A DNA stretch of 40,440 nucleotides. Source: a virus. The notes under the pieces are model-generated. The model made no database searches, was not told where the DNA came from, and saw only the letters and a program-made list of their open reading frames with translations. Of this stretch, positions 7,552 to 40,116 are shown in pieces (position 1 is the first letter of the stretch; each line of letters starts with the position of its first letter). The stretch is taken from IMG/VR virus record IMGVR_UViG_3300014838_000038, positions 1-40,440 of that record; one strand, written 5' to 3'. Both the position numbers and the translations under genes were made by a program.

Positions 7552-7596
7552 GATTTATATTAAATGCTACGATTTATATTAACCTATGTATTTATA
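7552..7596 (-). promoter_or_regulatory. Tandem TATAAAT(A/C) boxes and 13-bp direct repeats upstream of primase
   Basis: Read on the minus strand, TATAAATA lies at 7596-7589, TATAAATC at 7578-7571 and again at 7559-7552, spaced 18 and 19 bases (about two helical turns). The latter two are part of a perfect 13-bp direct repeat, cgatttatattaa on the plus strand at 7551-7563 and 7570-7582. TATAAATA is the known T4 late promoter box; here it would read toward the primase start at 7519. The same region separates the divergent GIY-YIG gene, so it may control both. Confidence 0.45.
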
Positions 7597-7991
7597 TGGA
7601 ATATGGACACTGGAAAATAAAAGAAGAAATGCCCCCTGATAGCATTGGCTTCATTTACCTTATAACTAATCACGCACACAACAAAAAGTACATTGGTAAA
7701 AAACTACTAAAGTTTAAAAAAACTAAAGCGCCCCTAAAGGGTAGAGTAAACAAGCGCCGTTCAAATGTCGAATCTGATTGGAAAACCTACACAGGTAGTT
7801 GTAAACGATTAAATGAGGACATCAAACAAGAAGGTATAGGCAACTTTTCCTTTGAAATTTTAGTATGGAAGAAAAATAAACCAGAACTTAATTACGAAGA
7901 AATGAAACAAATAATTCAAGCTAATGCATTGTTTCAAAAAGATTATTACAACGAATATGTTGGTGGCCGAGTAAGAATACGAAAGGATTAA
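7596..7991 (+). CDS. GIY-YIG family nuclease
   Basis: 131 residues and the only convincing plus-strand gene. The GIY-YIG signature is seen as G18-F-I-Y-L-I and K31-Y-I-G-K-K, followed by a basic stretch (LKGRVNKRR, about 47-55) and a W-K-x-Y-x-G-S block typical of this phage subgroup; GIY-YIG enzymes cut DNA with a conserved Tyr/Arg/Glu site. It is short and has no obvious DNA-binding extension, so it could be a phage repair/degradation nuclease or a freestanding homing endonuclease. Its position on the opposite strand, between primase and a repeat protein, is typical of an inserted nuclease gene. ATG preceded directly by TATTTAT, no Shine-Dalgarno. Its TAA overlaps the stop of the convergent gene by 4 bases. 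Confidence 0.8.
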   Translation: MEYGHWKIKEEMPPDSIGFIYLITNHAHNKKYIGKKLLKFKKTKAPLKGRVNKRRSNVESDWKTYTGSCKRLNEDIKQEGIGNFSFEILVWKKNKPELNYEEMKQIIQANALFQKDYYNEYVGGRVRIRKD

Positions 7992-13437: not shown

Positions 13438-16400
13438 TTAGGGTGTTGTTCCACCAGTTCCAGCCACTCCAGCATTTACAACGACACTTGAACCACCCAA
13501 CCCTGTTGTATTAATACCAACGTTATTGCCTGATGTGCCTATCTGTGATGTGTTGACAACGCCACCAACCGTTGTTGATATAATAGGGCTTCTATTTGTT
13601 GTTCCCAAGTCATTAATAGTAGTTGTATTGGTTTCACGAGATTTCACAAACCAAGACGGTGCTTCAGCATATGTTATGGTAGTTGAAAAATTTGCAAATG
13701 ATTTTTTTCTAAATGGTATAAGCTTATGAACCAAACTGTGATAATAATTATATTTATAAAATGCATAATTTGCAGGAGCCGGAGCATTAAAAACTGAGCC
13801 AGTAGGTACCAAATCTATTTTTGTAAATATTCTTGATGACACATCTGTTAGATTAATACCATCCGTGTATCCGTTTTCTGCTGTATAATTCACCAAATAT
13901 GTAAAATATTGAATTCCATTATACTGGGTTATACCACTCAATGAATCAACAAAAACTCCCAATTGATAATCATCTGGAACATCTTTTATATTTGAAAATC
14001 CCGTATAAGTATTTTCTACATACGAATTATCATATGGATATTTTCTTGTAATTATATTATCGGATAGCAAATTAATAAAATTTGCACTGCTCTTCGGTTT
14101 AAATACTATATTGTCACTTAAAACACTTATGTTTTCCACGAATGGTGGGAGATTAGGTATCTTTGATCTTTCCAAAATTGTAGGCTCTATTAACAATCCA
14201 GTATAAATTTTATTTCGTGATGGTAAAATATTCGTCAGTGTATCAAAAATGCTTTTATCAACATATATGTTGTATATTGTAAACAATTCATTAAATAACA
14301 CTTTATATTTGTTAGCATAATTATAAAAATTATTACGAAGAGTTTGATAAGAAGTATATCGTGATGTAGATGTCCATCTATCATCCGGACAAGCTACCGA
14401 CGAAATGATATTGGTATTTCCATAGAAATTCAACATATCTGTATTTCTTTCATCCGTTGGAGCCAAGAAAATTCCCAAAATGTTCGTATCAGAATAGTAA
14501 TTTTCAGAATTTTTATTAGCTGTAGATTTATACGGTGATAATGTATCATTGAATCTGTTCTCTGAAATTTTATTTATCTTGATATTTTCAAGACGTGACG
14601 GACCCACTCCGCTGACATCATAAACAATTACCGTTTCAAAATTCATTGTCTGAAAAGGAAATACTGATACAGACTGAGACAAGCAAGAAGATGTGTTGAA
14701 AAATTGAACATAATTGCTTCCTGAAAAATTATACAATGATGCTGTTATAAGTGGGTATGTTATATTATCATTATAAACTTGATAACCATTTATAGAAAAT
14801 GAGGCGGTACTAATATCAATGGGCGGCGTCGATATAGAGAAATTAAACAATGAGTTTAATGAACTAGAAGATGGTAATCCATCATAATAAGAGTATATGT
14901 TTTTACTTTTTGTAAAAAATACATCATCAGATATAGGTGATGTATCATATGAAAATCTATCCATCACACCGATAAAATTGGAAATGGAATATCCAGGAAT
15001 TATAGAAGAAATATTAAAAAACTGTCCACCTGGTTGAAGAGAAGATTCTATATTACCAAAAATGTTGTAATTATTTATATCAAATATATCATTAAATGAT
15101 GATGAAAGATAGAAAGAATATTCATAACTATCCGTGTTCAATTCATCGCTTCTCTTGCATACGCAAATATCATATTGTGTTGGAATTACGCTTGGATCCA
15201 AAGTTTCTTCAAATTTTGAATTAATGGAATTCTGTCTAAATAAAATTCCTGTTATATCATTCGTAAACAAATTGAAAAATTCTGTTGTATATGAAAATGT
15301 ATTAGTTCCTTGGATAAGTATGACATATATGCTTCCCAATGTATCCGATTCCTTTATAAATCCCAAGGAAAAAACCTGATTACCATTACCATCATATTTT
15401 GAAAATAACTGAACTAAAGTATTATCGGAATAATTATCCGTATCTATCCAAAACTTAAAGTCAACTGAACTGTATGGACAGAATTGAAGTCCTTGTATAT
15501 TCACATATTCATTATTATTTCCAATAAATTCCAATAAATATATGTCTTCGGCTACTTCATTCCACGCACTTATATTCGGTTTGTTATACCCACCACCAAA
15601 TTCTTTTATTTGTATAAAATTTCGTGGAATTCCATAACAAGATAAAATATATCGTATGGATTCCTGAGTTCCTTTGGATTTATATATGATAGGCAAATTA
15701 CTTAAAATTCTCTTCCAAATTGTTTTTGTTTTATCATCCAAAGAAATTGCATATGAACCAGAAAAACTTGGTGAGGATATATTGGACAAATATGCAATAG
15801 CTACATCAGATTCATCAATATTTCCGGATAGACTTGGGGGAATATTAAATCCAAAAGAGTTCAATATACTGCTTAATAATCCACGATTAAGACCATCATC
15901 TACAGTATTACCTGTCTCTTTATATAAATAAAAATTAGAAACATAAATGTAAATATTATCAAAATGATGACCAATCATACCTAGAAACTTTAAATACTCA
16001 TCGTTATCAGTGTTTGTAGAAATAAATTCCGGTGTATTATTAATTAAACTATCACGGTTACTCTTATCGTATTGTGAAGCATTTATTTCCAAATTTGATA
16101 TGTAATTTGATGGTTGTGGATTAGGCAATCCAACATCTTCTGATTCAACAAACTGTTTAGTGTTTATATCATATGCAAAGTTATCATTAAGGTATTGCAT
16201 ATAAAGATAAGATTCATAAAAGTCAAAGGAACTTATGATATTATTTTGTTGTGTAACCGCATCGCTATATACATCTAGAACAATTGTATTATTAAATCCA
16301 TCTGCTTGTGTAAATGTTCCGGGTGTCTGACCACCATTCGATAAATTTATGAGATTTTGACCTAATAAAGCTAATTTTATTATCTTGTTTTCAAATATTT

Positions 16401-18168: not shown

Positions 18169-18204
18169 AAATTACTAGCAATATATATCAAATGTTCTAA
18201 AATC

Positions 18205-19134
18205 TTATGATGCAGAACCAGATAATATAGCTTTCTCCAATGAAAGAAGCTCAATATTTGATAATGTTTTCTTTCCATCTGTACTAAAAGAAGTAACAAT
18301 AGGATTACCAATCTTATATTGTTGTTTTATCAATTTTATGTTTGCTGCACTAAGCATCCCATTTCCATTAGTATTAAACTTGGATAACAAGGTTTCTTTC
18401 GTATTTATTTTATCAACATTTGCATAAAAAATATTAATAATTAATTGTAAATCAGACGCTGTTAAAGGTTTAGTATTATCTGTTCTTCCAAGAGTATTCA
18501 ACAAAACTGGGTTTCCTATTTTATACTGCTTTTGTATATTTTTAATTTCATTCGTTTCCAACATCAAATCTCCATTCAAATCAAATATGGATAAAGGATT
18601 TGGATTAACTGAACTTGTTATCGTCGTTGAAGAAGTAATTGGTTCTATGGAAGGCGAAACAATATTACTTGTTGTAGATGGAGCATTCAATGGCAGATAT
18701 GGAAAATCCGTAGAAAAATCATCGGTTGTAGTTCCTTGTCCCAATAAAATTCTCAAAGATATAATTATATCTTTGGAACTACTAGCATTTGTAATCAAAT
18801 CAGAAATTATATTTGCATCAACACCTGCCGTGGCAAGTTGGTCCTGTAAAGATTGAATCTGATCATTTAAAGAATCTACAAGAGAAGAATAGTCTATGCT
18901 AGAGGATACAGGCTGCTCTGTAAATTCAGAAAAAGTTAAATCATAAAAATTTGACAAAGCATTATCATCATAATTAAAATTAGAACTGGAAATTTTCAAA
19001 AATGTTTGATTAAAAACGACATTTTGGTCCGTAAAAAACAAATTTCCAACGGAATCAAAACTGTATTCATAATCCAAAACATCATTTCTAAAATTTGATA
19101 TAAAGGTGTTAAATGTATTTAAATTATCGCTCAT
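18205..19134 (-). CDS. Virion protein with EF-hand/dockerin-like C-terminal repeats
   Basis: 309 residues. The C-terminal third carries Ca-loop-like motifs FDLNGDLMLETNEI (about 191-204) and FNTNGNGMLSAANI (about 257-270), each followed by the matching phrase KQYKIGNP, plus a degenerate third loop near 293. The pairs resemble dockerin type I / EF-hand repeats. The N-terminus is Asn/Phe/Asp-rich, with a short coiled-coil-like stretch at about 85-95. It lies 36 bases before the giant gp7-like gene and directly after the 720-residue gene (1-base gap). A calcium-stabilised adaptor between tail proteins is a possible role; the function is not known. Confidence 0.7.
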   Translation of the reverse strand: MSDNLNTFNTFISNFRNDVLDYEYSFDSVGNLFFTDQNVVFNQTFLKISSSNFNYDDNALSNFYDLTFSEFTEQPVSSSIDYSSLVDSLNDQIQSLQDQLATAGVDANIISDLITNASSSKDIIISLRILLGQGTTTDDFSTDFPYLPLNAPSTTSNIVSPSIEPITSSTTITSSVNPNPLSIFDLNGDLMLETNEIKNIQKQYKIGNPVLLNTLGRTDNTKPLTASDLQLIINIFYANVDKINTKETLLSKFNTNGNGMLSAANIKLIKQQYKIGNPIVTSFSTDGKKTLSNIELLSLEKAILSGSAS

Positions 19135-19135
19135 A

Positions 19136-21298
19136 TTATCTTACAATTTTAAATATAGCATTACTATCATATATGTCCGTGGATTCATCTGTAATAACTT
19201 TTATTAATATTTTGTAATACCGTTCTTGTGGAAGACTTGTCGTATCAAACATAAAGAAGTTTCCATTCAAATCACAACTTACTTTTGTACACTCATCGAA
19301 GTTCACAATATTTTCTGAACTTTCCATATCTTTTATTGCATAATAACTTGATGATGGTAAATATTTTGGCTCTATATAAACCGTTTGCAGTCTTTGAAAT
19401 GATCTACGTGGATATAAATCTCTAGCATACACATCAAAACGAACTATTGAACCAAATGTATATTGTGTTTTCAAATTCTTAATAGACACAGACGTTCCAA
19501 CACTAGATGTTATCGGAGAAAGATTTCCTGTGGAAAATGTAGAATCATCCCATTGTATATCAATATATGGGTAATAAATTGTGTTGGTTTCCTTTGAAAA
19601 GAAATGCAAAAAACCATTTGTATCACCCGTAGAAATTTCATCGGAACTTAGCAATATCAATCCATTATTTTCAACTGCTCCAGCCATCCAAGCCTTACAA
19701 ATTTCCGTTATATCCATAGTTATATCGGATTTTTGATAATAATCAAAAGATTGAGAACATATCAATGAGCTTCCTGTCCACAAAGAAGAAAAATATTGTG
19801 AAGCATAATATGGTTGTGAAGCAGTTAGTGCTTCTTGATATGTATAATCTGCAATTACTTGAATCTCTTCATCAAAATAATTGATAAAGCTAGAAGAAAA
19901 TACATTAAAAATATTAAAATTAAATTGAGATTGTAAAATTTCAAGAGAAGAAGACATTACATATGGTGTTATACTATCATATACGAATCCTATTTCCCCA
20001 GATTGAAGAGGTCCTAATAAACTAGAAGTATACAAAAAATTCGCATATAAAGCAGCAGCAGCGGGATTAGTAGCTTCTGTAAAATCTGTGTTATCGTAAT
20101 AAATACCATATATGCCCGCGACTCCCTCTACACTTCCTGTAACGCATGGGGAAATATTCGATGTCAATAAAAAGCAAGCTTGTGATCCTGTATTTATTCC
20201 ATTAATAACATCCGTATAAAAATTTATATATGTATTGTAATCATTTAAAGCATTGATGCTACTTGTTATATTTTGATTGTTAATAAGATTTAATTCGGCA
20301 TAAACGTTGCTGTATATTTCACAACTACTAGAAAGATTACTAACCAATTGTAAAACATAAGCATAAGAACTTGAAGCATACGAACTAGATTGTTGTAAAA
20401 ATGCCAAACCTGATTGCAAACTTGCTGAAAGACTTGCTAGAAAACATACACTTGCATCCACTTCAAATTGTTCTGCATCCGATAATACTACAGAAATATT
20501 TGATGTTACATTGTTATAGATTGTTATAGCCACCGTTTCCAAATCATTATAAGCATTTTGTAATTCTATATTTTCATTATAAAAATCATTCAATACAGAC
20601 GCGAAACTTGCACTTAATATGTTATCAAAACTTGCCGTTAAATTTGTCTGTAAACTTGATGAATATATTTGCTCAAAATTTGAAGCAGTAAGATTAAAAA
20701 ATGTTGTTTGAATGCTGGATGTTGGTTGTGTAAAATTATTAGGAATAGTATAATACCACACACCACCACCCATTAAAAATGATTCTGTAGATGGATAATC
20801 CAGATAATTATCGGTTGGTATATACGATATGTCTATATTTGAATACCAAGCAGATGATGTATCAGGATAATTCGAATAAACCCAATTTACACCAACATCC
20901 TCACCACCGAACGCATAAACTCCACTTCCTTGCTGCCACGCAGAGGAAAGAGGATAAGCATAAATTTTATATTTTAATGGTAAAGCAGTTGCATCCGTGG
21001 TTTTTAAGTTTAAGGTGAATATAGGATTTACTATGTCACCATTTACCAATGCTGTATAAATATCACTTAAATCAAACTGTATTAAGCTTCTTTGTAGTGT
21101 TCTTTGATTTTCTTCAAGAAATCTACTTGCTGAAATAGAATAGCTTCCTGATGCAAATCCACTTAAAATACCTGAAAAATCATTTAAACTTCCAGAAAAT
21201 CCATTGATGGAACCCGTAAAAGAACCACTGACGGAACCGCTTATACAGGTATTTGTTATAATACCCGTAAAAATCTCAGAATTAAATGATAAAGACAT
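19136..21298 (-). CDS. Tail structural protein with split DNRLRE-like domain and Ser/Tyr-rich insertion
   Basis: 720 residues. It starts with Gly-Ser-Phe repeats (GSVSGSFTGSINGFSGSL). Residues about 62-150 (RSLIQFDLSDIYTALVNG, then YKIYAYPLSSAW) look like the first half of a DNRLRE domain, the Asn-Arg-Leu-Arg-type beta-sandwich of secreted and fibre proteins. The second half (DITMDITEICKAWMAG, NNGLILLSSDE) appears only at about 525-560. The 370 residues between are a helical, Ser/Tyr/Ala-rich segment, probably a coiled coil that projects from the sandwich. The C-terminal 120 residues look Ig-like. This layout fits a tail-side fibre or sheath-decorating protein. A terminator precedes it, so it probably starts its own transcript; ATATTTAT lies 6 bases before the ATG. 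Confidence 0.7.
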   Translation of the reverse strand: MSLSFNSEIFTGIITNTCISGSVSGSFTGSINGFSGSLNDFSGILSGFASGSYSISASRFLEENQRTLQRSLIQFDLSDIYTALVNGDIVNPIFTLNLKTTDATALPLKYKIYAYPLSSAWQQGSGVYAFGGEDVGVNWVYSNYPDTSSAWYSNIDISYIPTDNYLDYPSTESFLMGGGVWYYTIPNNFTQPTSSIQTTFFNLTASNFEQIYSSSLQTNLTASFDNILSASFASVLNDFYNENIELQNAYNDLETVAITIYNNVTSNISVVLSDAEQFEVDASVCFLASLSASLQSGLAFLQQSSSYASSSYAYVLQLVSNLSSSCEIYSNVYAELNLINNQNITSSINALNDYNTYINFYTDVINGINTGSQACFLLTSNISPCVTGSVEGVAGIYGIYYDNTDFTEATNPAAAALYANFLYTSSLLGPLQSGEIGFVYDSITPYVMSSSLEILQSQFNFNIFNVFSSSFINYFDEEIQVIADYTYQEALTASQPYYASQYFSSLWTGSSLICSQSFDYYQKSDITMDITEICKAWMAGAVENNGLILLSSDEISTGDTNGFLHFFSKETNTIYYPYIDIQWDDSTFSTGNLSPITSSVGTSVSIKNLKTQYTFGSIVRFDVYARDLYPRRSFQRLQTVYIEPKYLPSSSYYAIKDMESSENIVNFDECTKVSCDLNGNFFMFDTTSLPQERYYKILIKVITDESTDIYDSNAIFKIVR

Positions 21299-21304
21299 AT
21301 ATGA

Positions 21305-21312
21305 TATAAATA
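21305..21312 (-). promoter_or_regulatory. Start-proximal TATTTATA element
   Basis: Minus-strand TATTTATA ending 6 bases before the ATG at 21298, directly after the terminator at 21354-21383. Because transcription from the right should stop at that terminator, some promoter is needed here, and this is the only conspicuous element in the gap. Confidence 0.45.
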
Positions 21313-21353
21313 TAACGTTTTATATGTTTTAATCTTGATATTTAGAAAATAAA

Positions 21354-21383
21354 ATGCCTCTGAACGTTTCCATTCAGAGGCAT
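21354..21383 (-). terminator. Rho-independent terminator
   Basis: Perfect 11-bp stem ATGCCTCTGAA / TTCAGAGGCAT with an 8-base loop, followed on the minus strand by TTTTATTTTC. It lies 18 bases past the stop of the 220-residue gene and ends the exported-protein block. Confidence 0.9.
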
Positions 21384-21401
21384 TGTATGATTTATTTATT
21401 A

Positions 21402-22064
21402 TTAAATTCTAAGCCGTATTGCAAGTCCTATGTTATATACATGTTGTGGTAGACCTGTCCAATCTTCCGCATCAGCAACAGCATAAATACTAACATTCTT
21501 ATCGGAGTATATAGAAGCTGCTCCACCTACACCAGCAATACCAATTGGCCCTGTACCTAGATTGTTTTTTCCAGGTAATGTAGTATTTCCCAAGGATAAT
21601 CCACTAAGAGGATAACCTACACCACCATATACTAGGGGTGTAAATGTGAATTGTTGCCACGATTTACCTGTACCTATAAATTGAAGGGGGTGTATAGGAT
21701 ATTGTAATGTCATAGTACCGTTAGGAATCCACCAACCACCGTCTAACCATTCCAAACGTGCACCAGCCATAACATACTTATTTATGTTATAAAATGCACC
21801 GATGCCACCACCAACTGTTCCATTTTTTGCTCCAGGAGCAATAACTGCAAATGGTACAAATGTCCAATTCGTTTTTGAGTTAAGAAATATATTGCCGAGA
21901 TCTGACAAAACACTTCCCAGTGATGGATCTGTTGTTGGTACGTTACTATCTGTTAGCAGGGATGAATGAACAGAATTGGTGTCTGCTTTTGCATTGAATG
22001 TGCAAGGCAACATCAATAATCCCATTGTAAGAACGCCTGCGATTAATTTTGATATTCTACTCAT
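21402..22064 (-). CDS. Secreted outer-membrane-like beta-barrel protein
   Basis: 220 residues. The N-terminus MSRISKLIAGVLTMGLLMLP followed by CTFNAKA is a classical Sec signal peptide with a likely cut after AKA (residue 27). The mature part has alternating Gly/aromatic strands (FVPFAVIAPGAKNGTVGGGI, YVMAGARLEWLDGGWW, FTPLVYGGVGYPL) and ends in a strand IGLAIRLRI, as in small 8- to 10-stranded outer-membrane barrels, although the usual terminal Phe is absent. Such a product would go to the cell envelope of the infected host, not the virion, and could alter phage adsorption or the envelope. It has AAGGA 11 bases before ATG, a 126-base upstream gap and a strong terminator downstream, so it is probably a single-gene transcript. 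Barrel identity is inference. Confidence 0.68.
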   Translation of the reverse strand: MSRISKLIAGVLTMGLLMLPCTFNAKADTNSVHSSLLTDSNVPTTDPSLGSVLSDLGNIFLNSKTNWTFVPFAVIAPGAKNGTVGGGIGAFYNINKYVMAGARLEWLDGGWWIPNGTMTLQYPIHPLQFIGTGKSWQQFTFTPLVYGGVGYPLSGLSLGNTTLPGKNNLGTGPIGIAGVGGAASIYSDKNVSIYAVADAEDWTGLPQHVYNIGLAIRLRI

Positions 22065-22190
22065 AGTTTTTATAATTCCTTTTTTTGTTAGATTTTACAT
22101 CTTATGAAGTGTAAAAATACTTGTCTATATTAAATAGTAAAACCATTTCCATTTAAATTTTTTTATTTAAGTTTATAACCACTTCACACT

Positions 22191-25100
22191 CTAAAACTTA
22201 GGAGTTTGAATGATTGGATTGGAACCACCAACAGCTATAAAAGATCTATTCTTCGTTTGGTATTGATCGTAATACCCCACTTCATCCGTTAAAATTCTTT
22301 GAGACATATTGTTTCCAAATATATCTTTAAGAATGCATCCAGCTGGTAATAACAATGGATATGTCTCTCCTTCGTGCGCCCACATAAATGTTCGATAAGG
22401 TGCTACACCGGAATTTGTTGAAACACAAGTTACAACGCATTGACGATTATTTGTAGTTATTACCGTAACATTATAATTTTTTAATAAATTATTTAACATT
22501 AAAGTAGCAGATGCTCGGGGTGTAATGCCTCTATAACCCTCCCATCCATTTATCTCTATAGTAAAGTCTCCACCTGGTTGTGCATAAAATTGATGCTGAA
22601 GCCATAAATTTGCATTATTTGCTAAAAATATTAATCCACGTTTAAGAACTCTATTTGAAGCTGTTCTCCAATCTACTTGACCATCATTATAATAGGAATT
22701 AGATTGACGCATATCAGGTTGATCAGTTATAGCACTACGAGCAGTATATTCTGTTTCGTTTACCTGTATAACCATATTTGTACCAACTAGTGAACGTAAA
22801 TGACTTATTTGAGAAATAGTAGTCTGTCCTGAATATAAATTATACGGTTCATCTGGGAAATCTGTTGGTAATACATTAATCCCTCCATCATGAAATGAAA
22901 TCGCTGACATAATATTAGTTAGTCCTCTATTAGCTAACATCATTCCTAAGTCATAGGAATCTACTATAGATTGAGATGATGGACCAACAAGTTTTGCATT
23001 ACTTCCTAAACTAGCTCTTACTTGTGCTGCAGTAGCTACTAAATCACAATAAGCATTTAAATAATTTGTATATGCTATCTCACATGGAGGAGAGTTATTA
23101 ATATCTGAATATCCATTAGTTACAACTACACAACCAGAATGATTAAATGGGAGTTCTCCCCAAGTACCATTTGCACCCATCCATGTATCGATCCATGGTT
23201 CATTCCATATTTCTATATATAAATTATTAGATACTGCTAATGGATTATATCTAGTCATTACTGATCCTACATAATTAGTCCACATAGACCATGTAAAAGT
23301 AGAATTAGTAGAATAATATAATGGAAGTTGAAACATACAAGTATCATAATTTGCTCCAGATGGTATATGATTTGTAACATCTTGACCTCCTGTTTGAGAA
23401 TCCCATGACCAATTAGTTGGATTACTACCATATACAGTTCCAGGATTTACAAGATTCATTTCTGATATATATGCTTGTCCATTTAATGCTGGTACATCAT
23501 TTGAATAACTCCAATATCCAGTTAAATAATACAAAATATTACCACTGATATCATTTGATTGTGCTCCTAAAAAGTATGTAGGAGATAATCCAGCTATTCC
23601 TTTTTGCATAGCAATATCAACATATGCAACTACATCAGTCGGATCTCCTAATCCTAATTCACTAGCAAATATTGGTAATCCACCTGACCAATAATTAAAA
23701 TTATCAACACATGACGCTAAATTTGTCATAAAATATGGATAACTATAATTTCCAGATGGAGAATATCCTCCATTACCAGACCAAGTCCCAGACATACGAT
23801 AATCATGATAAGTAACTACATCAATATTTGTAAATCCCCCAGCTAATGAAAAATACATCATAAAAGTATTGTCATAAGGAGAAGATAATGATGGAGCACC
23901 TACTCCTACATTAGAATCAATATCATGTATAGCTCTTCTAACATACTGACAAATCTGTGCTACAAACCATGCAGTATTAGATACTGTAGTACATCCAGGT
24001 AATACATTACTACCTATTCCATCATAAGGTTCATTAACTGGTTCTATCCAAGTTATATAGTCATGACCGTATTTAGAGATCTCATGAGTAAGAATAGCTT
24101 TCACTAAATTAGTCTCTGCATTAATATATTGTGCCTGAGTACAATTAGTATATATTAACCAAGAAGGAGGTTGAATAATATTAAACATTATTTTTGGTTG
24201 AGCACAATTAGTCAAATATGATCCACCAGGTAATACATTAGGAATATTAGTAATAATATTTTGATCTAACCAATTATCAAAACTTCTACAGATCATAGCT
24301 CCATAAAAGAAATCTGTAGTTATACTGGTATTATTAAAATTATAAAATCCTGGAGATGTCTCGATACTTCTCCAACCTACTATTTGTTCACGCATCCAGG
24401 TATTAGTTTGTCCATTTAGAATTTTCCCAAAAATATCATGTAATTCATTATTATCAGTACCACTAGCTGAATCAGTTCCTTCCATTATCGTTCCAATATT
24501 TGGTCTTAAATATAATAAAGAATCATCAGCAATACTCCTCCAAGTATGTGGATTAAGTTGTGTATATACTCTTCCTATAGTTGAACTCCAATCAACATTC
24601 GCTAAAGCATCTAATCCAAACCATGAAGCTGATGACCAACCAACTGGTAATACTACGAACTGACATCTATCATTTGAATTTTCTACAAAATAATGTCCAA
24701 CGGAAAGACTTGTTAATAAAGCCGGAGAAGTTCCTGAATATACTGTTTGGCAAACACCTGTAATAACTGTCATTACATGTATAGCAGAATTATCAGCACT
24801 TGTTAAAGCTACTGATTCTCCATAAGTATACATTGCAGTATCTCTAAAAGCTATCCGACATACTCCTCCAGTATTTAAAAATGTATTCTGCCAACATAAT
24901 ACAGTGTTTCCAACTAATGAATTATAAGCATTATTCACACCATCTGTACAATTTATATTTTCTATCCAATAAACAGGTGTACTTGAGATTGTCGATGGAA
25001 GAGCATTACTGGATATATCCGTAACGGTTCTTTGAATATGTTGTGTATATGAACCATTTGCTATAACTTCAAAATGCGAAATTTGAATTCCATAAATATT

Positions 25101-25235
25101 AGTTTCACCATTATCAGTCCATCCTGATAACGTAAAAATTGTATTATTTGTTGAATAAGTAGCACTATGCGCAAACAACTTATTACTAATACCAATGAAT
25201 AAAAACAATAAAAAAATTAATGTATATTTTTTCAT
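22191..25235 (-). CDS. Secreted protein with two tandem clan-A glycoside-hydrolase-like barrels
   Basis: 1014 residues with a Sec signal peptide (MKKYTLIFLLFLFIGISNKL, cut near residue 22). Two TIM-barrel-like halves each carry the clan GH-A acid/base signature: W396-I-E-P-V-N-E402-P, with a possible nucleophile in FASE526LG, and EIWNE679P, with VNE827TEY as possible nucleophile. WRSIETSPGFYNF at about 288-300 is the typical start of such barrels. Families GH39, GH30 or GH5 are all compatible; I cannot choose. The substrate would be a cell-surface or extracellular polysaccharide. Cys is frequent (at least 15) in contrast to neighbouring virion proteins, which suggests disulfides in an exported protein. 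It follows the lipoprotein gene by 3 bases and stops with TAG, unlike its neighbours. Unlike a tailspike depolymerase, it has a signal peptide. Acquisition from a bacterium is likely. Confidence 0.72.
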   Translation of the reverse strand: MKKYTLIFLLFLFIGISNKLFAHSATYSTNNTIFTLSGWTDNGETNIYGIQISHFEVIANGSYTQHIQRTVTDISSNALPSTISSTPVYWIENINCTDGVNNAYNSLVGNTVLCWQNTFLNTGGVCRIAFRDTAMYTYGESVALTSADNSAIHVMTVITGVCQTVYSGTSPALLTSLSVGHYFVENSNDRCQFVVLPVGWSSASWFGLDALANVDWSSTIGRVYTQLNPHTWRSIADDSLLYLRPNIGTIMEGTDSASGTDNNELHDIFGKILNGQTNTWMREQIVGWRSIETSPGFYNFNNTSITTDFFYGAMICRSFDNWLDQNIITNIPNVLPGGSYLTNCAQPKIMFNIIQPPSWLIYTNCTQAQYINAETNLVKAILTHEISKYGHDYITWIEPVNEPYDGIGSNVLPGCTTVSNTAWFVAQICQYVRRAIHDIDSNVGVGAPSLSSPYDNTFMMYFSLAGGFTNIDVVTYHDYRMSGTWSGNGGYSPSGNYSYPYFMTNLASCVDNFNYWSGGLPIFASELGLGDPTDVVAYVDIAMQKGIAGLSPTYFLGAQSNDISGNILYYLTGYWSYSNDVPALNGQAYISEMNLVNPGTVYGSNPTNWSWDSQTGGQDVTNHIPSGANYDTCMFQLPLYYSTNSTFTWSMWTNYVGSVMTRYNPLAVSNNLYIEIWNEPWIDTWMGANGTWGELPFNHSGCVVVTNGYSDINNSPPCEIAYTNYLNAYCDLVATAAQVRASLGSNAKLVGPSSQSIVDSYDLGMMLANRGLTNIMSAISFHDGGINVLPTDFPDEPYNLYSGQTTISQISHLRSLVGTNMVIQVNETEYTARSAITDQPDMRQSNSYYNDGQVDWRTASNRVLKRGLIFLANNANLWLQHQFYAQPGGDFTIEINGWEGYRGITPRASATLMLNNLLKNYNVTVITTNNRQCVVTCVSTNSGVAPYRTFMWAHEGETYPLLLPAGCILKDIFGNNMSQRILTDEVGYYDQYQTKNRSFIAVGGSNPIIQTPKF

Positions 25236-25238
25236 ATC

Positions 25239-26309
25239 TTAATAAGTCCATGATCTTCCCCAAGTATATCTTGCGCCCCCAAAATATTGAGTACTTATTG
25301 GATATCCCATTAATTGAGGTTTCATTAAAAATCTTATAATACTTCCTGGAGACATCACGGCATTTATGGTATTAGTCCAGTATTGGTTAAAATAAGTATT
25401 TGAAGATGTTCCACTACCAACTCTCGTATCGTTTGTATATATCGGAGAGTTAGCCAAAAATACTCCACCAGTAGAATCAAATATATTAAGATATAACTGA
25501 TAAGCAAATACCTCATTTGTAACAGAATACCAACGAGTTGATATAACTATGTTTGATTTACATCCGCCGCCGTTTCCCATCCACCACAACCCATAATTAA
25601 GGTCATTTGTTAAAACCTTAGATAGTTGAAGTTCGAGTTGTCCAACAGGCCAACTAGAGTAAAAAATGCTAAACGCTGGTAAATATCCACCGATTGTGCC
25701 ATTGAATGGAGAACCCCAATAATCAATAGAATTGGCTAAACTAACTGATAATGGCCACTCATATCCCCCTGAATTACTAGATGTAAATGCATTTGTAGAA
25801 AGTAAAATATAAGTAAGTCCATTTATATTTGTTACGGTTATACTGCCTATGGTTGAATTTGTATAAGCAACAACAATAACAGCACTTGTTGATGCATATC
25901 CCGTAATATCTTGCCAGATAGTAGGCTGTATACCATAAATATATACTTTTCCTGTGTTATTTGATACAGATAAACCAGGCGCACCGCTAACGTCTACATT
26001 AGCAACATTACCGCTACCTCCAGGCAAATTATTTATTAAATTAGAAAAATAATTACTTAAAACACTAAGATTGTTTGTATTACTGAAATAATTGGCGTGA
26101 AATCCATCCAAAAAATCCGCATTAAATCCAGTCCATACCGCAGAATCATCTGCGGAATGAGTTGCCAAATTTAATCTATAAGATTGTGGCGCTGCATGTT
26201 CCTGCAGTCTATCCACCTTTAACGTTGATTGTGAAGATGCAGTTGCACAAGACATTAAGCATATAAATAATAGTATAAATGGAAAAATAAATAGTTTGTT
26301 TGTTTTCAT
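25239..26309 (-). CDS. Predicted lipoprotein with a tail-fibre-like motif
   Basis: 356 residues. The N-terminus MKTNKLFIFPFILLFICLMS is followed by Cys21 in the lipobox L-M-S-C, so it is likely to be acylated. Residues about 58-75 (VWTGFNADFLDGFHANYF) match the LDGxHAxxF motif common near the N-terminus of phage tail-fibre repeat proteins. This is unusual for a lipoprotein. The rest is beta-rich with many Tyr/Trp/Asn and no catalytic motif. It immediately precedes the secreted glycoside-hydrolase-like gene (3-base gap) and follows small baseplate genes. Possible roles are an envelope-anchored partner or receptor mimic that blocks superinfection, or a fibre whose N-terminus has been replaced by an export signal; neither is proved. 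Confidence 0.68.
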   Translation of the reverse strand: MKTNKLFIFPFILLFICLMSCATASSQSTLKVDRLQEHAAPQSYRLNLATHSADDSAVWTGFNADFLDGFHANYFSNTNNLSVLSNYFSNLINNLPGGSGNVANVDVSGAPGLSVSNNTGKVYIYGIQPTIWQDITGYASTSAVIVVAYTNSTIGSITVTNINGLTYILLSTNAFTSSNSGGYEWPLSVSLANSIDYWGSPFNGTIGGYLPAFSIFYSSWPVGQLELQLSKVLTNDLNYGLWWMGNGGGCKSNIVISTRWYSVTNEVFAYQLYLNIFDSTGGVFLANSPIYTNDTRVGSGTSSNTYFNQYWTNTINAVMSPGSIIRFLMKPQLMGYPISTQYFGGARYTWGRSWTY

Positions 26310-26321
26310 ATAGTTTTGACC

Positions 26322-26738
26322 TTATGGTTCTTCTTCGAGTATTGGATCGCCGTCTACATATATTGCAATTCCACCGGTTGTCGTAAATATTATTTTGGTA
26401 TTTGGGTTATATGGTGAAATTAATCCTCTTTGTGTTATCATATATGCAAACACCGATGGCGTAATATCAATCCAAGTATTTCCGTCATATGTTCTTATGT
26501 TAGCGGAAACTATTGCTTCATTTTGGAAATATCCTGGAGATATCCACATATCCCACAAAGATGGATTAGATGGCTCAACAAATGTTTCATAAACAGAAAG
26601 AAAACCGTATGCACCCAATGACCGTATAACTGATTCTCTAAATTCAAATATTTGATTTGTAATAGAGCCCGTTGTAGTCAAATTGACTATAGAAGGCGCT
26701 ATGTCATCAGGAAAAACAGTTGAATCTGGTTGTGCCAT
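26322..26738 (-). CDS. Small tail/baseplate-region protein, unknown
   Basis: 138 residues, acidic C-terminus (DPILEEEP). No signal peptide, membrane segment or recognisable motif. It begins one base after the preceding gene's stop and ends 12 bases before the lipoprotein start, so it belongs to the same transcript as the baseplate genes. Its middle (SLWDMWISPGYFQNEAIVSA) suggests a small beta-rich structural or adaptor fold. Coding potential is good from frame length and tight packing; the function is unknown. Confidence 0.65.
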   Translation of the reverse strand: MAQPDSTVFPDDIAPSIVNLTTTGSITNQIFEFRESVIRSLGAYGFLSVYETFVEPSNPSLWDMWISPGYFQNEAIVSANIRTYDGNTWIDITPSVFAYMITQRGLISPYNPNTKIIFTTTGGIAIYVDGDPILEEEP

Positions 26739-26739
26739 A

Positions 26740-27294
26740 TTATATTAATATCCAATAGTTGTTAGGCAATATAAATAGATTGTAGATATTTGAATCAGAA
26801 CACAGATTCGTATCTTGAACATTTAAAATAAATGTATATTGACCAGAACCCGTAGGTGTACCAGAAATAGATGCGGTGTTATTGCTTTGTGTAAATTGTA
26901 ATCCCAAAGGTAAAGAACCACTTGTTATATTATAGATATACGGTATAAATCCTCCGATACCAAGTATTGATGAAGAAAAATATACAGACGATGTGGCATT
27001 TGCAGTTAAATTTGAAAGATAAAAATTATAACTACAATTAAAGCACTCATACACAGATCCCGTAATGAAATTGGCTACACCACACTCTCCACCAATTAAT
27101 ACACCATTAAAATTTGATAAATTTATATAAGACGTATCACCATCTATGTCTTCTATAGAAAGAGCTTCATTTACCAAGACCGGTTTAGACTTTACAGAAA
27201 TAACCAAAGAATCAGAACCACCAAAATTATTTAAAATATATTTTGGATTATTTGTTATGTAAGCATCTGAATTTGGATAAAGGTGATAGTGCAT
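26740..27294 (-). CDS. Virion-type protein with putative Ig (He_PIG-like) domain, paralogue of its neighbour
   Basis: 184 residues with the ATG at 27294. A longer frame extends upstream to 27372, but it overlaps the preceding gene by 74 bases and lacks ATG. The start MHYHLYPNSDAYITNNPKYI aligns with the start of the preceding gene (MHKKIYPIQDTYIENSSTYY), so the two are paralogues and 27294 is the right start. The shared central phrase (NLSNFNGVLIG versus NVSNFSGSLIG) supports this. The C-terminal part (GSLPLGLQF, ASISGTPTGSGQYTFIL) is a putative Ig domain of the He_PIG type, absent from the paralogue. It starts 4 bases after the neighbour's stop. Probably a structural component of the baseplate region. 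Confidence 0.7.
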   Translation of the reverse strand: MHYHLYPNSDAYITNNPKYILNNFGGSDSLVISVKSKPVLVNEALSIEDIDGDTSYINLSNFNGVLIGGECGVANFITGSVYECFNCSYNFYLSNLTANATSSVYFSSSILGIGGFIPYIYNITSGSLPLGLQFTQSNNTASISGTPTGSGQYTFILNVQDTNLCSDSNIYNLFILPNNYWILI

Positions 27295-27298
27295 ATGA

Positions 27299-27625
27299 TT
27301 ATGGTGATTGTAAATAAACTTGTAAGGATGCACTTGGAACATAAACGGAGTCAGGAACAATAACGCCCTCACAAGAAATTACCGTTCCGTTTATATTTTT
27401 AGCGGTCCCTTGATTAAAGCCAATAAGAGAACCAGAAAAATTGCTTACATTAAAATTAATAATTTCTTGATTTATATTTTCCAAGAGAATCATTTCATTT
27501 AAAGTTTGAACGGTTGAATCAATAGCAGATATATTTAAAATTTCCGTTCGTGATAAATCTTTAAGATAGTATGTAGAAGAATTTTCTATGTATGTATCTT
27601 GTATTGGATATATTTTTTTATGCAT
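27299..27625 (-). CDS. Small virion-type protein, paralogue of the following gene
   Basis: 108 residues. The N-terminal KIYPIQDTYIENSS and later NVSNFSGSLIGFNQGTAKNI match the following 184-residue gene, so the pair arose by tandem duplication. The YPxxDxYI start resembles the opening strand of DNRLRE-type beta-sandwiches. Its ATG overlaps the last base of the gp6-like stop, which indicates translational coupling to the baseplate wedge gene. No signal or membrane segment is seen. Probably a minor structural protein near the wedge; the exact role is unknown. Confidence 0.68.
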   Translation of the reverse strand: MHKKIYPIQDTYIENSSTYYLKDLSRTEILNISAIDSTVQTLNEMILLENINQEIINFNVSNFSGSLIGFNQGTAKNINGTVISCEGVIVPDSVYVPSASLQVYLQSP

Positions 27626-29595
27626 TATAGTGCAGAACCTTTAATGTCGGTTGAAAAATTTTTAACTTCAAATATAGCAGGGTCAATAGATGGATATACA
27701 ATATTATTCTTTGTAGCTGCGTTTATATCATAGGAAAATATAGAATAGTTTCCATCATCTATAGTAAGATTTACTATATCCAAGTTTGCTACGGACTGGA
27801 CACCGTCATTATTAGCAATTTCAAGTTGTAACTGACCAATGTTGATAGGTTGTCCAATTTGCCAATTATCTATATTAAAGAAATTTTGAATTGATGAAAT
27901 ACAATTTGTTAAAACCTCCTTCTTATTATAATTTGAATATACTATGATTTGAAAGTTCACACCAATGTTAATAATATATGCATCAACAATGTTTATACGA
28001 TCCGATACAATTCTAAATTTTGATAGATATGTTCGTAGATTGTATGAGAGAGCATCATTTATTGTTGTTAAATTTTGATTATCATCATATGAGAGAACAT
28101 ACAAATTAACACCAAGGGGGTTAGTTCCCTCTAAATTTACCCTTCTAAAATTCTTTTGGGTACTATCTATGACAAAATTATTATTTTGATCAAGCAATCC
28201 CTTTATATAAGTTGAATTATTTGTATACAAATTTGTTTCGGATGATACATAGACCTTTGCAACAGATCCATATTGTGCAGGCATACTATAAACTGCTGAA
28301 ATATAATCCTCTTTTGTTACAATTCTATTTTGTGTAGAAAAATTAGCAATAGCATTTTGTTTAATTTTATAAATGGATTCCTGACTTTCACCGCCGACAC
28401 ACGGCGTGGAATTTGTCACTTTTATACTACTTTTTATAGTATTTACCAATGATATTTCAGACGGCAAATAATTTTGTAATTCATTAACCGTCAATGATGT
28501 AATATTTGTTACACCATTTATATTTGCATTTGATGATAAACCTCCACCAACTATATAGGTAACCGTTAAAGTGGTGTTGGTTGGGGAAATGCCATAAGCT
28601 GATGATTTTACAAATGATGTTGGATCCAAAACAAAATTATAAAGACTGATATTCGAAAATCCTACGCCAAGAGTTTTCGATGATGGTGTTATAACCTCTT
28701 CGTTTACGGTGTCAAGAGAACTACCAAACTGTAAATATGTATTATTATTTTCGTCAACGGTCACTATATATCGTCTATTGGTTCGCAAGTATTGCAGTAT
28801 AGATGGAACTGTAGAGTTATACAGAGAATATTCTTCAAAATTAATCTGATTATTTTCGACAGGCATTTCTACTAAATCCTGTGCTAAATAATCTACCTGA
28901 TACCAAATATTATTATCGGAATCCGTAACATTTAATATTTGTATTACATTGTTTCCATTTAATTGTAATTTCAAATCAGCATTTTGTGAAGAAAGACCAA
29001 ATGTTTGCGTTACAATCTGTCCGGAATAAATAGGCACGGATTTTTGCAACAGATAAAATTCCGGCTCATTATTAGAATTATATGAATATATTTCATCAAT
29101 CCTAGGACTAGCTCCTGTATTTACAGAAAAATCTACCTCACCATTTGTGACAAATGATATGCCATTTTGAGAAGATACTTGCATTTGTGATGAAATTTTA
29201 AAAGCATAGTAAGTATCAGGAGAAAATGTACCATCAGAATTTCGTACAGATGGAACAATCTGATATACGTCAAGTATGCCCGTAGAAGGTTTTGATGGTT
29301 TTGGTATGTATCCAAGATATCTAGCCAGCTGTATTACATTTTTTCGTTCACTGGCATAATTGATAAGGCCTTCATTAAACTGATAATCTATATAGTAAGA
29401 TAGAACATCACCAACATATGCTGCCATATCAATATACATCATTCCTGGAGAAGCATCATTAAAATCTTGGTAAGTTTTTGAATAATAATTTTGAGCAAAG
29501 TCTATAAGATTGGCTTTAAATTGATTAAAGTCTTTTCCCAGATATTTTATCACTTTTTGTTGTGGAGCAAAGGTTTTATTTAGTATTTTTGACAT
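27625..29595 (-). CDS. 6: Baseplate wedge protein, T4 gp6 / baseplate J type
   Basis: 656 residues, matching T4 gp6 (660) in length. The N-terminus has the gp6-type YLGKDFNQFKANLIDFAQNY followed by FNDASPGMMYIDMAAYVGDV and LARYLGYIPKPSKPS, the conserved beginning of the family. The central region ends with QESIYKIKQNAIANFSTQNR and VTKEDYISAVYSMPAQYGSV, the baseplate J-like core. In T4 two gp6 copies per wedge form the inner ring that clamps gp7 and transmits the contraction signal. The gene lies 3 bases after the gp25-like gene, the same neighbours as in T4 and P2 (W-J-I order), and before the two small paralogues. ATG in the context TAATTTATG, no Shine-Dalgarno. Confidence 0.92.
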   Translation of the reverse strand: MSKILNKTFAPQQKVIKYLGKDFNQFKANLIDFAQNYYSKTYQDFNDASPGMMYIDMAAYVGDVLSYYIDYQFNEGLINYASERKNVIQLARYLGYIPKPSKPSTGILDVYQIVPSVRNSDGTFSPDTYYAFKISSQMQVSSQNGISFVTNGEVDFSVNTGASPRIDEIYSYNSNNEPEFYLLQKSVPIYSGQIVTQTFGLSSQNADLKLQLNGNNVIQILNVTDSDNNIWYQVDYLAQDLVEMPVENNQINFEEYSLYNSTVPSILQYLRTNRRYIVTVDENNNTYLQFGSSLDTVNEEVITPSSKTLGVGFSNISLYNFVLDPTSFVKSSAYGISPTNTTLTVTYIVGGGLSSNANINGVTNITSLTVNELQNYLPSEISLVNTIKSSIKVTNSTPCVGGESQESIYKIKQNAIANFSTQNRIVTKEDYISAVYSMPAQYGSVAKVYVSSETNLYTNNSTYIKGLLDQNNNFVIDSTQKNFRRVNLEGTNPLGVNLYVLSYDDNQNLTTINDALSYNLRTYLSKFRIVSDRINIVDAYIINIGVNFQIIVYSNYNKKEVLTNCISSIQNFFNIDNWQIGQPINIGQLQLEIANNDGVQSVANLDIVNLTIDDGNYSIFSYDINAATKNNIVYPSIDPAIFEVKNFSTDIKGSAL

Positions 29596-29598
29596 AAA

Positions 29599-30027
29599 TT
29601 ATATATTAACGTTCTGTACCGAAAATGTTATATTGTTCTGTGTTTGTGTTTGAATAACAACATAATAAACAGATACTTCTATTTTATAATTATCTACATC
29701 ATTCAGGTTTTGTGTGTTATTAATGGATATATTTGTAATACTGATTTGTGGTATCCATTGTTGTAGTTCCGTTGCTATAATGTTCTTAGCAATCTCTATG
29801 CTACTCTTATCAAGTTGATTAAACAATAATCCGTATAATTTGGTACCAAATGTTGGCGCCATTCTTCTTTCCCCTGGACGTGTATTAAGAAAATTAGTCA
29901 AATTTTGTTTTATCTGTGTATTTGTATCAAAAGATTGAGCAAAATATCCATTATTACCATCTGTGAATGGCATTAGCAAACCTATCGGATAAAAAGATGA
30001 TGATATATCTCCATCGGTTATTATCAT
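29599..30027 (-). CDS. 25: Baseplate wedge protein, gp25 / GpW type
   Basis: 142 residues, like T4 gp25 (132). The family signature is plain: LNTRPGERRMAPTFGTKLYG at about 47-66, with the RPGER loop and conserved Phe-Gly. The N-terminal part (IGLLMPFTDGNNGYFAQSFD) also fits. gp25 sits at the top of the wedge next to gp6 and nucleates the tail sheath; it has a lysozyme-like name in old annotation but no proven lytic activity. It overlaps nothing: 3 bases to gp6 downstream, 3 bases from the preceding gene. Start context TAATTTATG, no Shine-Dalgarno. This is one of the firmest calls in the window. Confidence 0.95.
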   Translation of the reverse strand: MIITDGDISSSFYPIGLLMPFTDGNNGYFAQSFDTNTQIKQNLTNFLNTRPGERRMAPTFGTKLYGLLFNQLDKSSIEIAKNIIATELQQWIPQISITNISINNTQNLNDVDNYKIEVSVYYVVIQTQTQNNITFSVQNVNI

Positions 30028-33096: not shown

Positions 33097-33990
33097 TTAT
33101 ACGGAAATAGTTCCATTATTTATATAATCATTCTTGATTTGCTTCTGATATAAGTTCATCTTATTGATAACTTTTGTTATCATTTGAGTTTTACATCCAG
33201 AGATTTCCCTTATGTAAAGATACAAAGCTTTCTTATTGAAAGCATCAATCTTATCAATGTTTCTGAAAAGTTCTATGACAGCATTAGCGATGGATATATC
33301 GCGTTGCTTTTTAAAGATTTTATCTATATTTTTATCCCAATAGTTAATCATTAAATCCAAAAACTCTCGGGTTTGAACATTTTCATGATGTTTATCTCGG
33401 ACCTGTAAGCGAACTCCGTGATCTTCATGTTCTTCTGTAATATCGACATGCATATTGAAATGCCTATAATTATTATTATTATGAAATATCAAATAATTTT
33501 TAGCAATGATACTAAAATAAGAAAAAGCTTTTCCTTTCCGTTCCTCATATTTGTCCATATTAGCGACAAGATGTGATACGGTTTCCTTTTGTGTATCAAG
33601 TGGTCCTACGGCAAAATATGTGAACTTAAAAGTATTTAATACATTTTCAACAAGTTTATCAAATGCAAATTTAATTTTCGTATCATAAATTTCATTTCTC
33701 TTTATAGGATCTATTTCCTTATTATACGCAACAATAGCATCTTGGGTATCCTTAGTAAAATACATTTTTTCAATAGAAGGCTTTCTCTTGGAAACAACGG
33801 TCGTGATAGGTATTACGGGTATTACGACAGTTTCTTCCTCAATTTTTTTAAATTTCTTTACAATTTTTTTCAATTTCTTTACAATGGTCTTGACCCGTTT
33901 TTGTTTTTTATGAACTATAATCGGTTTTGTCTTTTTATTCGATTTAATTGCATGAACCTTTTTCTTAATATAGTATTTCTTTTTCTTCAT
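33097..33990 (-). CDS. Late-transcription sigma factor, T4 gp55-like
   Basis: 297 residues. The core from about residue 75 has sigma region 2 features: FTKDTQDAIVAYNKEIDPIK, IKFAFDKLVENVLNTFKF, and KGKAFSYFSIIAKNYLIFHN, the last matching the gp55 pattern of a region 2 helix that contacts the promoter and core polymerase. T4 gp55 (185 residues) directs host polymerase to TATAAATA late promoters together with gp33 and the clamp; this protein probably redirects transcription to late structural genes. The first 60 residues are an unusual Lys-rich arm (KKKKYYIKKK, KKLKKIVKKFKKI), not in T4 gp55. A C-terminal helical region (about 225-290) may be region 4-like. It starts 3 bases after a small membrane-protein gene. 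Confidence 0.78.
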   Translation of the reverse strand: MKKKKYYIKKKVHAIKSNKKTKPIIVHKKQKRVKTIVKKLKKIVKKFKKIEEETVVIPVIPITTVVSKRKPSIEKMYFTKDTQDAIVAYNKEIDPIKRNEIYDTKIKFAFDKLVENVLNTFKFTYFAVGPLDTQKETVSHLVANMDKYEERKGKAFSYFSIIAKNYLIFHNNNNYRHFNMHVDITEEHEDHGVRLQVRDKHHENVQTREFLDLMINYWDKNIDKIFKKQRDISIANAVIELFRNIDKIDAFNKKALYLYIREISGCKTQMITKVINKMNLYQKQIKNDYINNGTISV

Positions 33991-33993
33991 AAT

Positions 33994-34263
33994 TTATTCT
34001 ATTTCTTTTTCCAACTCATCTATAATATTTAACATCGATGTAAAAACAAACCCTACATCATCGTCCTTCTCAAACATTTGTTTGTCGTCAATTTCTTTCA
34101 GACGTAAATATGTTTTTTTACAAGAATCAAGAGTAGATAAAATCCACCCTTCATAAACACCAATCTTCATTAAACTATTTTTTATTATTATTCCCTGCGC
34201 TATATTAATTCCAACGGAAACCAATAGAAATAATATCAATGCTATTACATATAACCAAATCAT
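33994..34263 (-). CDS. Small single-pass membrane protein
   Basis: 89 residues. Residues 2-24 (IWLYVIALILFLLVSVGINI) are a strong transmembrane segment, followed by a charged cytoplasmic-type helix ending in acidic residues (NIIDELEKEIE). The topology with an N-terminal anchor and no signal cleavage suggests an inner-membrane protein. It sits directly before the sigma gene and after the 49-residue gene (5-base gap). No lysis motif is seen, so holin or spanin roles are not claimed. Function unknown. Confidence 0.7.
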   Translation of the reverse strand: MIWLYVIALILFLLVSVGINIAQGIIIKNSLMKIGVYEGWILSTLDSCKKTYLRLKEIDDKQMFEKDDDVGFVFTSMLNIIDELEKEIE

Positions 34264-40108: not shown

Positions 40109-40116
40109 AATAAATA
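40109..40116 (-). promoter_or_regulatory. Start-proximal ATATTTATT element
   Basis: Minus strand TTGCGTCTTTATATTTATT, ending 4 bases before the ATG at 40104. The TTGCGTC and ATATTTATT pair is shared with the gene start at 38680. Confidence 0.45.

Follow-up and report, generated by a model that had tools for sequence, protein, structure and literature searches.

Phage enzymes that degrade glycans are mostly parts of the particle, such as tail spikes, or metabolic cargo. Phages also encode exported proteins close to genes of the particle: Llp of T5 adjoins the gene for the receptor-binding protein, Cor-type lipoproteins lie downstream of gpJ (PMC9586334), and the Lpp lipoproteins of the mEp phages are encoded within the structural cluster (PMC11893012). 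Porphyromonas phages, of Bacteroidota, encode signal-peptide proteins that follow the Bacteroidetes Q rule, in which cleavage exposes a glutamine (PMC10367356). Viral enzymes of glycoside hydrolase (GH) family 5 (GH5) are known as auxiliary genes, one of them with confirmed endomannanase activity (PMC6786970), and the GH32 enzymes of Bacillus phages have no signal peptide (PMC4595243). Here we describe three adjacent open reading frames (ORFs) with predicted export signals that lie among the baseplate and tail genes of a 40,440-base IMG/VR record (IMGVR_UViG_3300014838_000038; hereafter the window), a fragment of a larger T4-like genome. The first encodes a protein of 356 amino acids (aa) with a fibre-like motif (25239), the second a 1014-aa glycosidase-like protein (the GH protein, 22191), and the third a 220-aa protein (21402).

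The initial annotation knew of no described counterpart to this block, a statement that Llp, Cor, mEp Lpp, the signal-peptide proteins of Bacteroidota phages, lambda Lom and viral GH5 contradict. As with Llp, Cor and mEp Lpp, exported proteins are encoded here beside structural genes; unlike those small proteins (PMC9586334, PMC11893012), 25239 has 356 aa and a fibre-like motif, lacks a conserved lipobox and is not homologous to any of them. The GH protein shares its family with the viral auxiliary enzymes (PMC6786970) and differs from them by its signal peptide, by two glycosidase-like domains in one chain and by a fixed slot in a baseplate operon. A homolog of 25239 in the relative L003 has a glutamine-exposing site (..VYC|QT) comparable to those of the Porphyromonas phages, which are temperate and belong to another group; tail-operon placement and a glycosidase are not what the sections drawn on describe there (PMC10367356). 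The 220-aa gene is optional cargo, like lambda Lom (Ail/Lom, PF06316) and other morons, whereas its protein has no sequence match to Ail/Lom, its barrel fold is only a guess, and the window genome is T4-like. Neither surface proteins that are encoded at tail genes and exported (Lom, Llp, Cor, mEp Lpp) nor GH5 enzymes of viruses are thus new in themselves. What seems new is a slot within the baseplate operon of T4-like phages that repeatedly holds exported glycosidases, an arrangement of which a limited literature search returned no example.

Predicted Export Signals in the Tail Operon

The tail genes are encoded on the minus strand and transcribed from high to low coordinates in the order gp25-like, gp6-like, 27299, 26740, 26322, the three insert ORFs, 19136, 18205, 13438, 12718 and 11613 (Table 1); every one of the last five has relatives in other phages. 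The arrangement given in the initial annotation, three consecutive ORFs on one strand among baseplate and tail genes, is present, with the gp6/gp25-like genes upstream and conserved tail genes downstream.

All three ORFs begin with a Sec-type N-terminus, in which lysine or arginine (K/R) precedes a hydrophobic core, and contain no further strong hydrophobic segment. Each protein was shuffled 20,000 times and scored for N-terminal hydrophobicity with or without nearby K/R. The hydrophobicity of 25239 was reached by 10 of the 20,000 shuffles (1 with K/R too) and that of the GH protein by 12 (3 with K/R). The signal of the 220-aa protein is weaker (667 and 189 of 20,000, respectively), yet it ends in a clean AKA|D site. 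The assignment of an export signal to each ORF is thereby upheld, less strongly for the 220-aa protein, on the combined basis of the hydropathy test, the cleavage-site pattern and conservation.

In 80 related loci, none of the 555 ORFs from the tail region (minimum length 80 aa) has a Sec-type N-terminus; in this set the GH gene of the relative L091 is truncated at the 5′ end, and its signal peptide was read separately. A separate set of 49 loci contains 161 ORFs (minimum length 100 aa) downstream of gp6. In this set such an N-terminus occurs only in the 25239 homolog, present on two contigs of the closest relative; one further apparent signal was an artefact, the start having been placed too far upstream. 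Two of the three proteins, 25239 (L002/L003, 40% identity) and the GH protein (L091, ∼40%), have diverged homologs that retain the signal peptide, which argues that export matters. The predicted exported character of the three proteins is real and, for this operon, unusual. Outside the tail region, the contig of L003 (G001) carries further small signal-peptide genes at 15910-16269, 18196-18441, 24277-24630 and 33699-34256, two of them with apparent lipoboxes.

A Predicted GH5 Domain and a Second Glycosidase-like Domain

Of the two GH-like domains proposed in the initial annotation, the first is recovered above a profile cut-off and the second by conserved motifs only. Excised domain 1 matches PF00150 with 26.3-26.8 bits (cut-off 23.5; E = 4.5e-6 to 6.3e-6) and is found by a family search as well; the match is missed when the full chain is scanned. 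VNEP (residues 400-402) and ASELG (524-528) fall within the matched stretch, where, to judge from the motifs, the acid/base and nucleophile glutamates (NEP; E.G), which GH5 enzymes carry at the ends of strands 4 and 7, are expected. Domain 1 is a GH5 domain by profile and motif, with a predicted TIM-barrel fold and predicted hydrolase activity. An origin of the two domains by duplication is not supported, as their alignment is no better than that of shuffles (102 of 1000 reach the score); with no profile match in addition, domain 2 is termed glycosidase-like on its motifs. Two of these, IWNEPW and ETEY, are identical in the L091 homolog at ∼39% identity, which agrees with, but does not prove, conserved catalytic glutamates of GH clan A. 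The GH protein contains 18 cysteines in 1014 aa (1.8%, versus 0.3% in gp6), and the composition of its gene matches its own genome (G+C at third codon positions, 0.14). Single-sequence AlphaFold models were unusable, with a predicted local distance difference test score of 29 for this protein and 33 for the 220-aa protein.

Direct sequence searches of viral contigs, genome contigs and phage and plasmid records returned no homolog of the GH or 220-aa proteins, and the EIWNEPW motif, sought as a DNA pattern in viral contigs, occurred only in unrelated proteins. A relative with GH genes, L091 (G028), was reached through the conserved neighbour gene 12718. Its slot encodes a 717-aa protein with a signal peptide (MNIIKRYLAYLIIVALLTFVGNAQA), preceded by the C-terminal end of a second GH homolog. 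The 717-aa protein aligns to residues 33-232 (42%) and 597-1010 (38%) of the window protein, the GH5 domain not being included, and both proteins have the same glutamates in NEP and ETE as well as six cysteines in common. In L174 (G028), positions 2-2676 hold tandem GH genes, at least two homologs (one at 523-2676, the C-terminal piece of another at 2-466), with a G+C content of 47-49% in a phage genome of 31%, so these genes came from elsewhere; judged by composition, they are a recent acquisition.

A Predicted Exported Protein with a Fibre-like Motif

The homolog of 25239 in L002/L003, where gp6 is 79% identical, aligns over residues 1-130 with 40% identity and keeps both the signal peptide and the WTGFNADxLDG motif; for the C-terminal part of 25239 no relatives were found. 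The designation of this protein as a lipoprotein in the initial annotation is doubtful. The lipobox pattern [LVI][ASTVI][GAS]C is not conserved: LMSC in the window comes near the consensus, with methionine at the second place, and the homolog has only LFC and VYC. A glutamine stands at the same aligned place in 25239 (..ATASS|QST) and in the L003 homolog (..SVYC|QT), at a possible signal peptidase I site of both, which fits, and suggests, cleavage by signal peptidase I before glutamine under the Bacteroidetes Q rule.

The motif and the repeats that follow it in the L003 homolog (ASNAINAAHSTNSDWATTAVL) are tail-fibre-like. Both the L002 and L003 contigs stop within those repeats, so the remainder of that relative's slot is out of sight. 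Database matches of 25239 to tail fibres are weak (PHROG, E = 0.05; one short phage match, E = 0.4), and a match to DUF4995, below cut-off and overlapping the signal peptide, was not used. As a DNA pattern in viral contigs, WTGFNAD was found in the L003 homolog and otherwise only in unrelated proteins.

The 220-aa Gene as a Probable Moron-like Insertion

In L091, 62 nucleotides (nt) separate the GH stop codon from the start codon of the 19136 homolog, and an AT-rich promoter-like stretch (ATTAAAACAYATAAAACRTTATATTTATA) is common to L091 and the window. In the latter, a 126-nt leader, the 220-aa gene and a terminator stand between the GH gene and 19136. The genes on either side of the 220-aa gene are thus adjacent to each other in a relative, and the 220-aa gene has its own terminator, as is typical of morons; on these grounds it looks like a separate moron-like insertion. 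The AT-rich leader holds ACTATTTAATA, one base off the element found before other genes, and a sigma-70 scan gave no strong site in it. The strong terminator that had been said to close the three-gene block exists (21384..21353; −23 kcal/mol, z = −6.9) and belongs to the 220-aa gene, not to the block.

No homolog of the 220-aa protein was found in any set searched, nor any match in Pfam or PHROGs; weak NCBIfam matches to transporters and enzymes (E = 0.003 and worse) are far below cut-off and were not used. The suggestion of a small outer-membrane barrel could not be confirmed: in a crude test the protein has 6 amphipathic 9-mers against a shuffle mean of 4.7, and 99 of 300 shuffles reach 6. 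A barrel fold is a guess.

Variation of the Slot among Relatives

Both borders are present in 52 loci. The slot between gp6 and the 19136 homolog is empty in 48 of these and contains a 171-aa gene in 1; in the other 3 (L092-L094) it contains two short genes whose products are homologous to the N-terminal part of the long tail protein found in other relatives. The cultured phages Immutovirus (Flavobacterium phage immuto) and Microcystis phage Mel-JY01 share the order gp25-gp6-19136 homolog-18205-like-13438 homolog and lack an insert in the slot, and their complete genomes encode no homolog of any of the three proteins. The window carries the same two split modules as L092-L094 (27299, 26740) followed by the insert, which indicates that the long tail protein was split first and that the genes for exported proteins entered the gap.

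The three genes are distributed differently. L003 keeps a 25239 homolog, with the GH part out of sight; L091 has GH genes without the 220-aa gene; the window has all three; and L092-L094 and nearly all other loci have none. A single cassette kept or lost as a unit, the test set in the initial annotation, is ruled out by L091, L003 and L092-L094. Bacterial DNA joined by misassembly was likewise ruled out, because relatives hold homologs of 25239 and of the GH gene at the same place. By this comparison the three genes vary independently, and the locus is an accessory slot rather than a single unit.

The long tail protein is one chain in most relatives and is split in the window lineage into two N-terminal modules plus 19136 (window 26740-27625 and 19136-21298; L092-L094; L004, L005, L007, L008, L035).

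Proposed Role and Alternative Explanations

On balance we consider it probable that the region between gp6 and 19136 is an accessory slot for Sec-exported proteins, and that the glycosidase, late in infection, targets glycans of the envelope or outside the cell. In this model, in which late expression, actual export, enzyme activity, substrate and benefit are all inferred, the slot between the gp6-like gene and 19136 would take up genes for Sec-exported proteins; its content would be an exported fibre-motif protein and a two-domain glycosidase, the small 220-aa gene having been inserted later and separately. The genes for 25239 and the GH protein would be read together with the baseplate genes, and hence late. 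Their products would be exported to the periplasm, where the cysteine-rich glycosidase could form disulfides, and the enzyme would cut cell-envelope, capsule or matrix glycans before or at lysis, which may help progeny to leave and spread.

Several points weigh against this model. An identity as virion proteins is compatible with the same data, which come from a virus known solely through metagenomes. No obvious signal for export across the outer membrane is present in the GH protein, which lysis would free even without a signal peptide, so that a role before lysis or a need for periplasmic folding must be assumed. Domain 2 has no Pfam match at E = 10, either with the window domain or with its homolog, and no PDB match.

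The glycosidase could instead be an auxiliary metabolic gene product, exported to feed the infected cell from environmental polysaccharide (mannan, glucan) without any remodelling of the surface. Viral GH5 genes are known as auxiliary genes, including that of the endomannanase cited above (PMC6786970), and the foreign G+C content of the L091 GH genes is as expected of host-derived metabolic genes. A place among late structural genes, at a 3-nt spacing, fits a function at the close of infection more readily than it fits feeding, and we regard metabolic cargo as unlikely. The position of 25239 and the GH protein in the baseplate operon also recalls virion components: the two might be tail fibres or spikes whose hydrophobic N-terminus aids assembly or is a false signal. 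The WTGFNADxLDG motif and repeats of the L003 homolog, the weak PHROG tail-fibre match (E = 0.05) and the agreement of 25239 with its homolog at the N-terminus (residues 1-130) fit such appendages, whereas the absence of such N-termini from all 555 tail-region ORFs of the related loci, the signal peptides with cleavage sites kept in both diverged homologs, the high cysteine content of the GH protein and the empty slot of most relatives make them distinctly improbable.

Superinfection exclusion, in which 25239 and the 220-aa protein would coat or alter the cell surface and block adsorption of further phages, as Llp, Cor and other small phage lipoproteins do, has precedents in exported exclusion proteins encoded beside tail or receptor-binding genes (PMC9586334, PMC11893012), and an exported fibre-like protein could mask the phage's own receptor. 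We give this explanation a low probability: searches of Pfam and PHROGs link neither protein to Llp, Cor, Lom or any other protein of this kind, 25239 has no conserved lipobox, and the glycosidase is left unexplained. Metabolic cargo, virion appendages and superinfection exclusion are not separated by the sequence alone, nor are a metabolic and a surface role of the glycosidase. A more elaborate proposal, which we hold to be quite doubtful, is a dedicated surface-stripping slot, in which the fibre-like protein would bind a glycan of its own cell and the glycosidase would cut it; receptors and capsule would be cleared before lysis, preventing re-adsorption of progeny and superinfection, and the GH gene would be exchanged as the host glycan changes.

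If the accessory-slot model holds, a slot that repeatedly takes up signal-peptide glycosidases would make the infected cell itself a source of free depolymerase. Close relatives vary between one two-domain chain and tandem single-domain genes, which suggests adaptation to changing surface glycans, and the slot proteins are testable candidates for how T4-like phages of (probably) Bacteroidota handle capsule and exopolysaccharide.

Operon Layout, Putative Promoters and Host

The gene for 25239 begins 12 nt after the preceding gene, and 3 nt separate it from the GH gene, a spacing that fits cotranscription of both with the genes upstream. Late timing of the insert genes is suggested by their position in the operon and by the TATTTAT element before neighbouring genes. 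This element precedes 6 of 29 starts versus 0.36 expected (0 of 2000 random draws), and in L003 and L091-L094 it recurs before several of the same genes. It resembles a late promoter, placed so near the ATG that the mRNA would be nearly leaderless. On the minus strand of the window it stands ∼10-16 nt before starts that head transcription units, at 40116, 30428, 21312, 13374, 11546 and 8480.

Table 1. Coordinates of the slot, its borders and its predicted elements in the window
Feature	Coordinates	Strand	Evidence
gp25-like baseplate gene	29599-30027	-	
gp6-like baseplate wedge protein, upstream border of slot	27625..29595	-	PHROG baseplate wedge, E 2e-16
N-terminal module of 19136-type protein, first copy	27299..27625	-	fused to 19136 homolog in most relatives
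Module homologous to N-terminus of relatives' 19136-type protein, second copy	26740..27294	-	
138-aa protein directly upstream of the three ORFs, without signal peptide	26322..26738	-	70% identity, L002/L003 only
356-aa protein; predicted signal peptide (~26232-26309), then WTGFNADFLDG motif	25239..26309	-	ORF, N-terminal test, L002/L003 homolog
1014-aa protein: predicted signal peptide (residues 1-22), N-terminal domain, GH5, second glycosidase-like domain, C-terminal domain	22191..25235	-	
Predicted GH5 (Pfam PF00150 Cellulase) domain	23595..24167	-	profile match; VNEP (E402), ASELG (E526)
Second glycosidase-like domain	22461..23444	-	motifs IWNEPW (E679), SFHDG, ETEY (E827/E829)
220-aa predicted exported protein, signal peptide residues 1-27 (AKA|D)	21402..22064	-	G+C 39% vs 31% backbone
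Moron-like segment (126-nt leader, 220-aa gene, terminator), not in L091	21345..22190	-	window vs L174/L091; exact borders inferred
Intrinsic terminator just past 220-aa gene	21353..21384	-	14-pair stem, 4-nt loop, TTATTTT tail
TATTTAT element before 19136 gene, late-promoter-like	21306..21312	-	kept in L091
Conserved tail protein 19136, downstream border of slot	19136..21298	-	DRNLRE-type domain, weak NCBIfam DNRLRE match

Most gene starts have no Shine-Dalgarno sequence, and signal peptides on a sister contig end in ..SAQ; together with the Flavobacterium host of one cultured relative, these features suggest a host from Bacteroidota. The sole plus-strand gene in its part of the window, at 7596-7991, has matches to PHROG families annotated as NAD synthetase and homing endonuclease.

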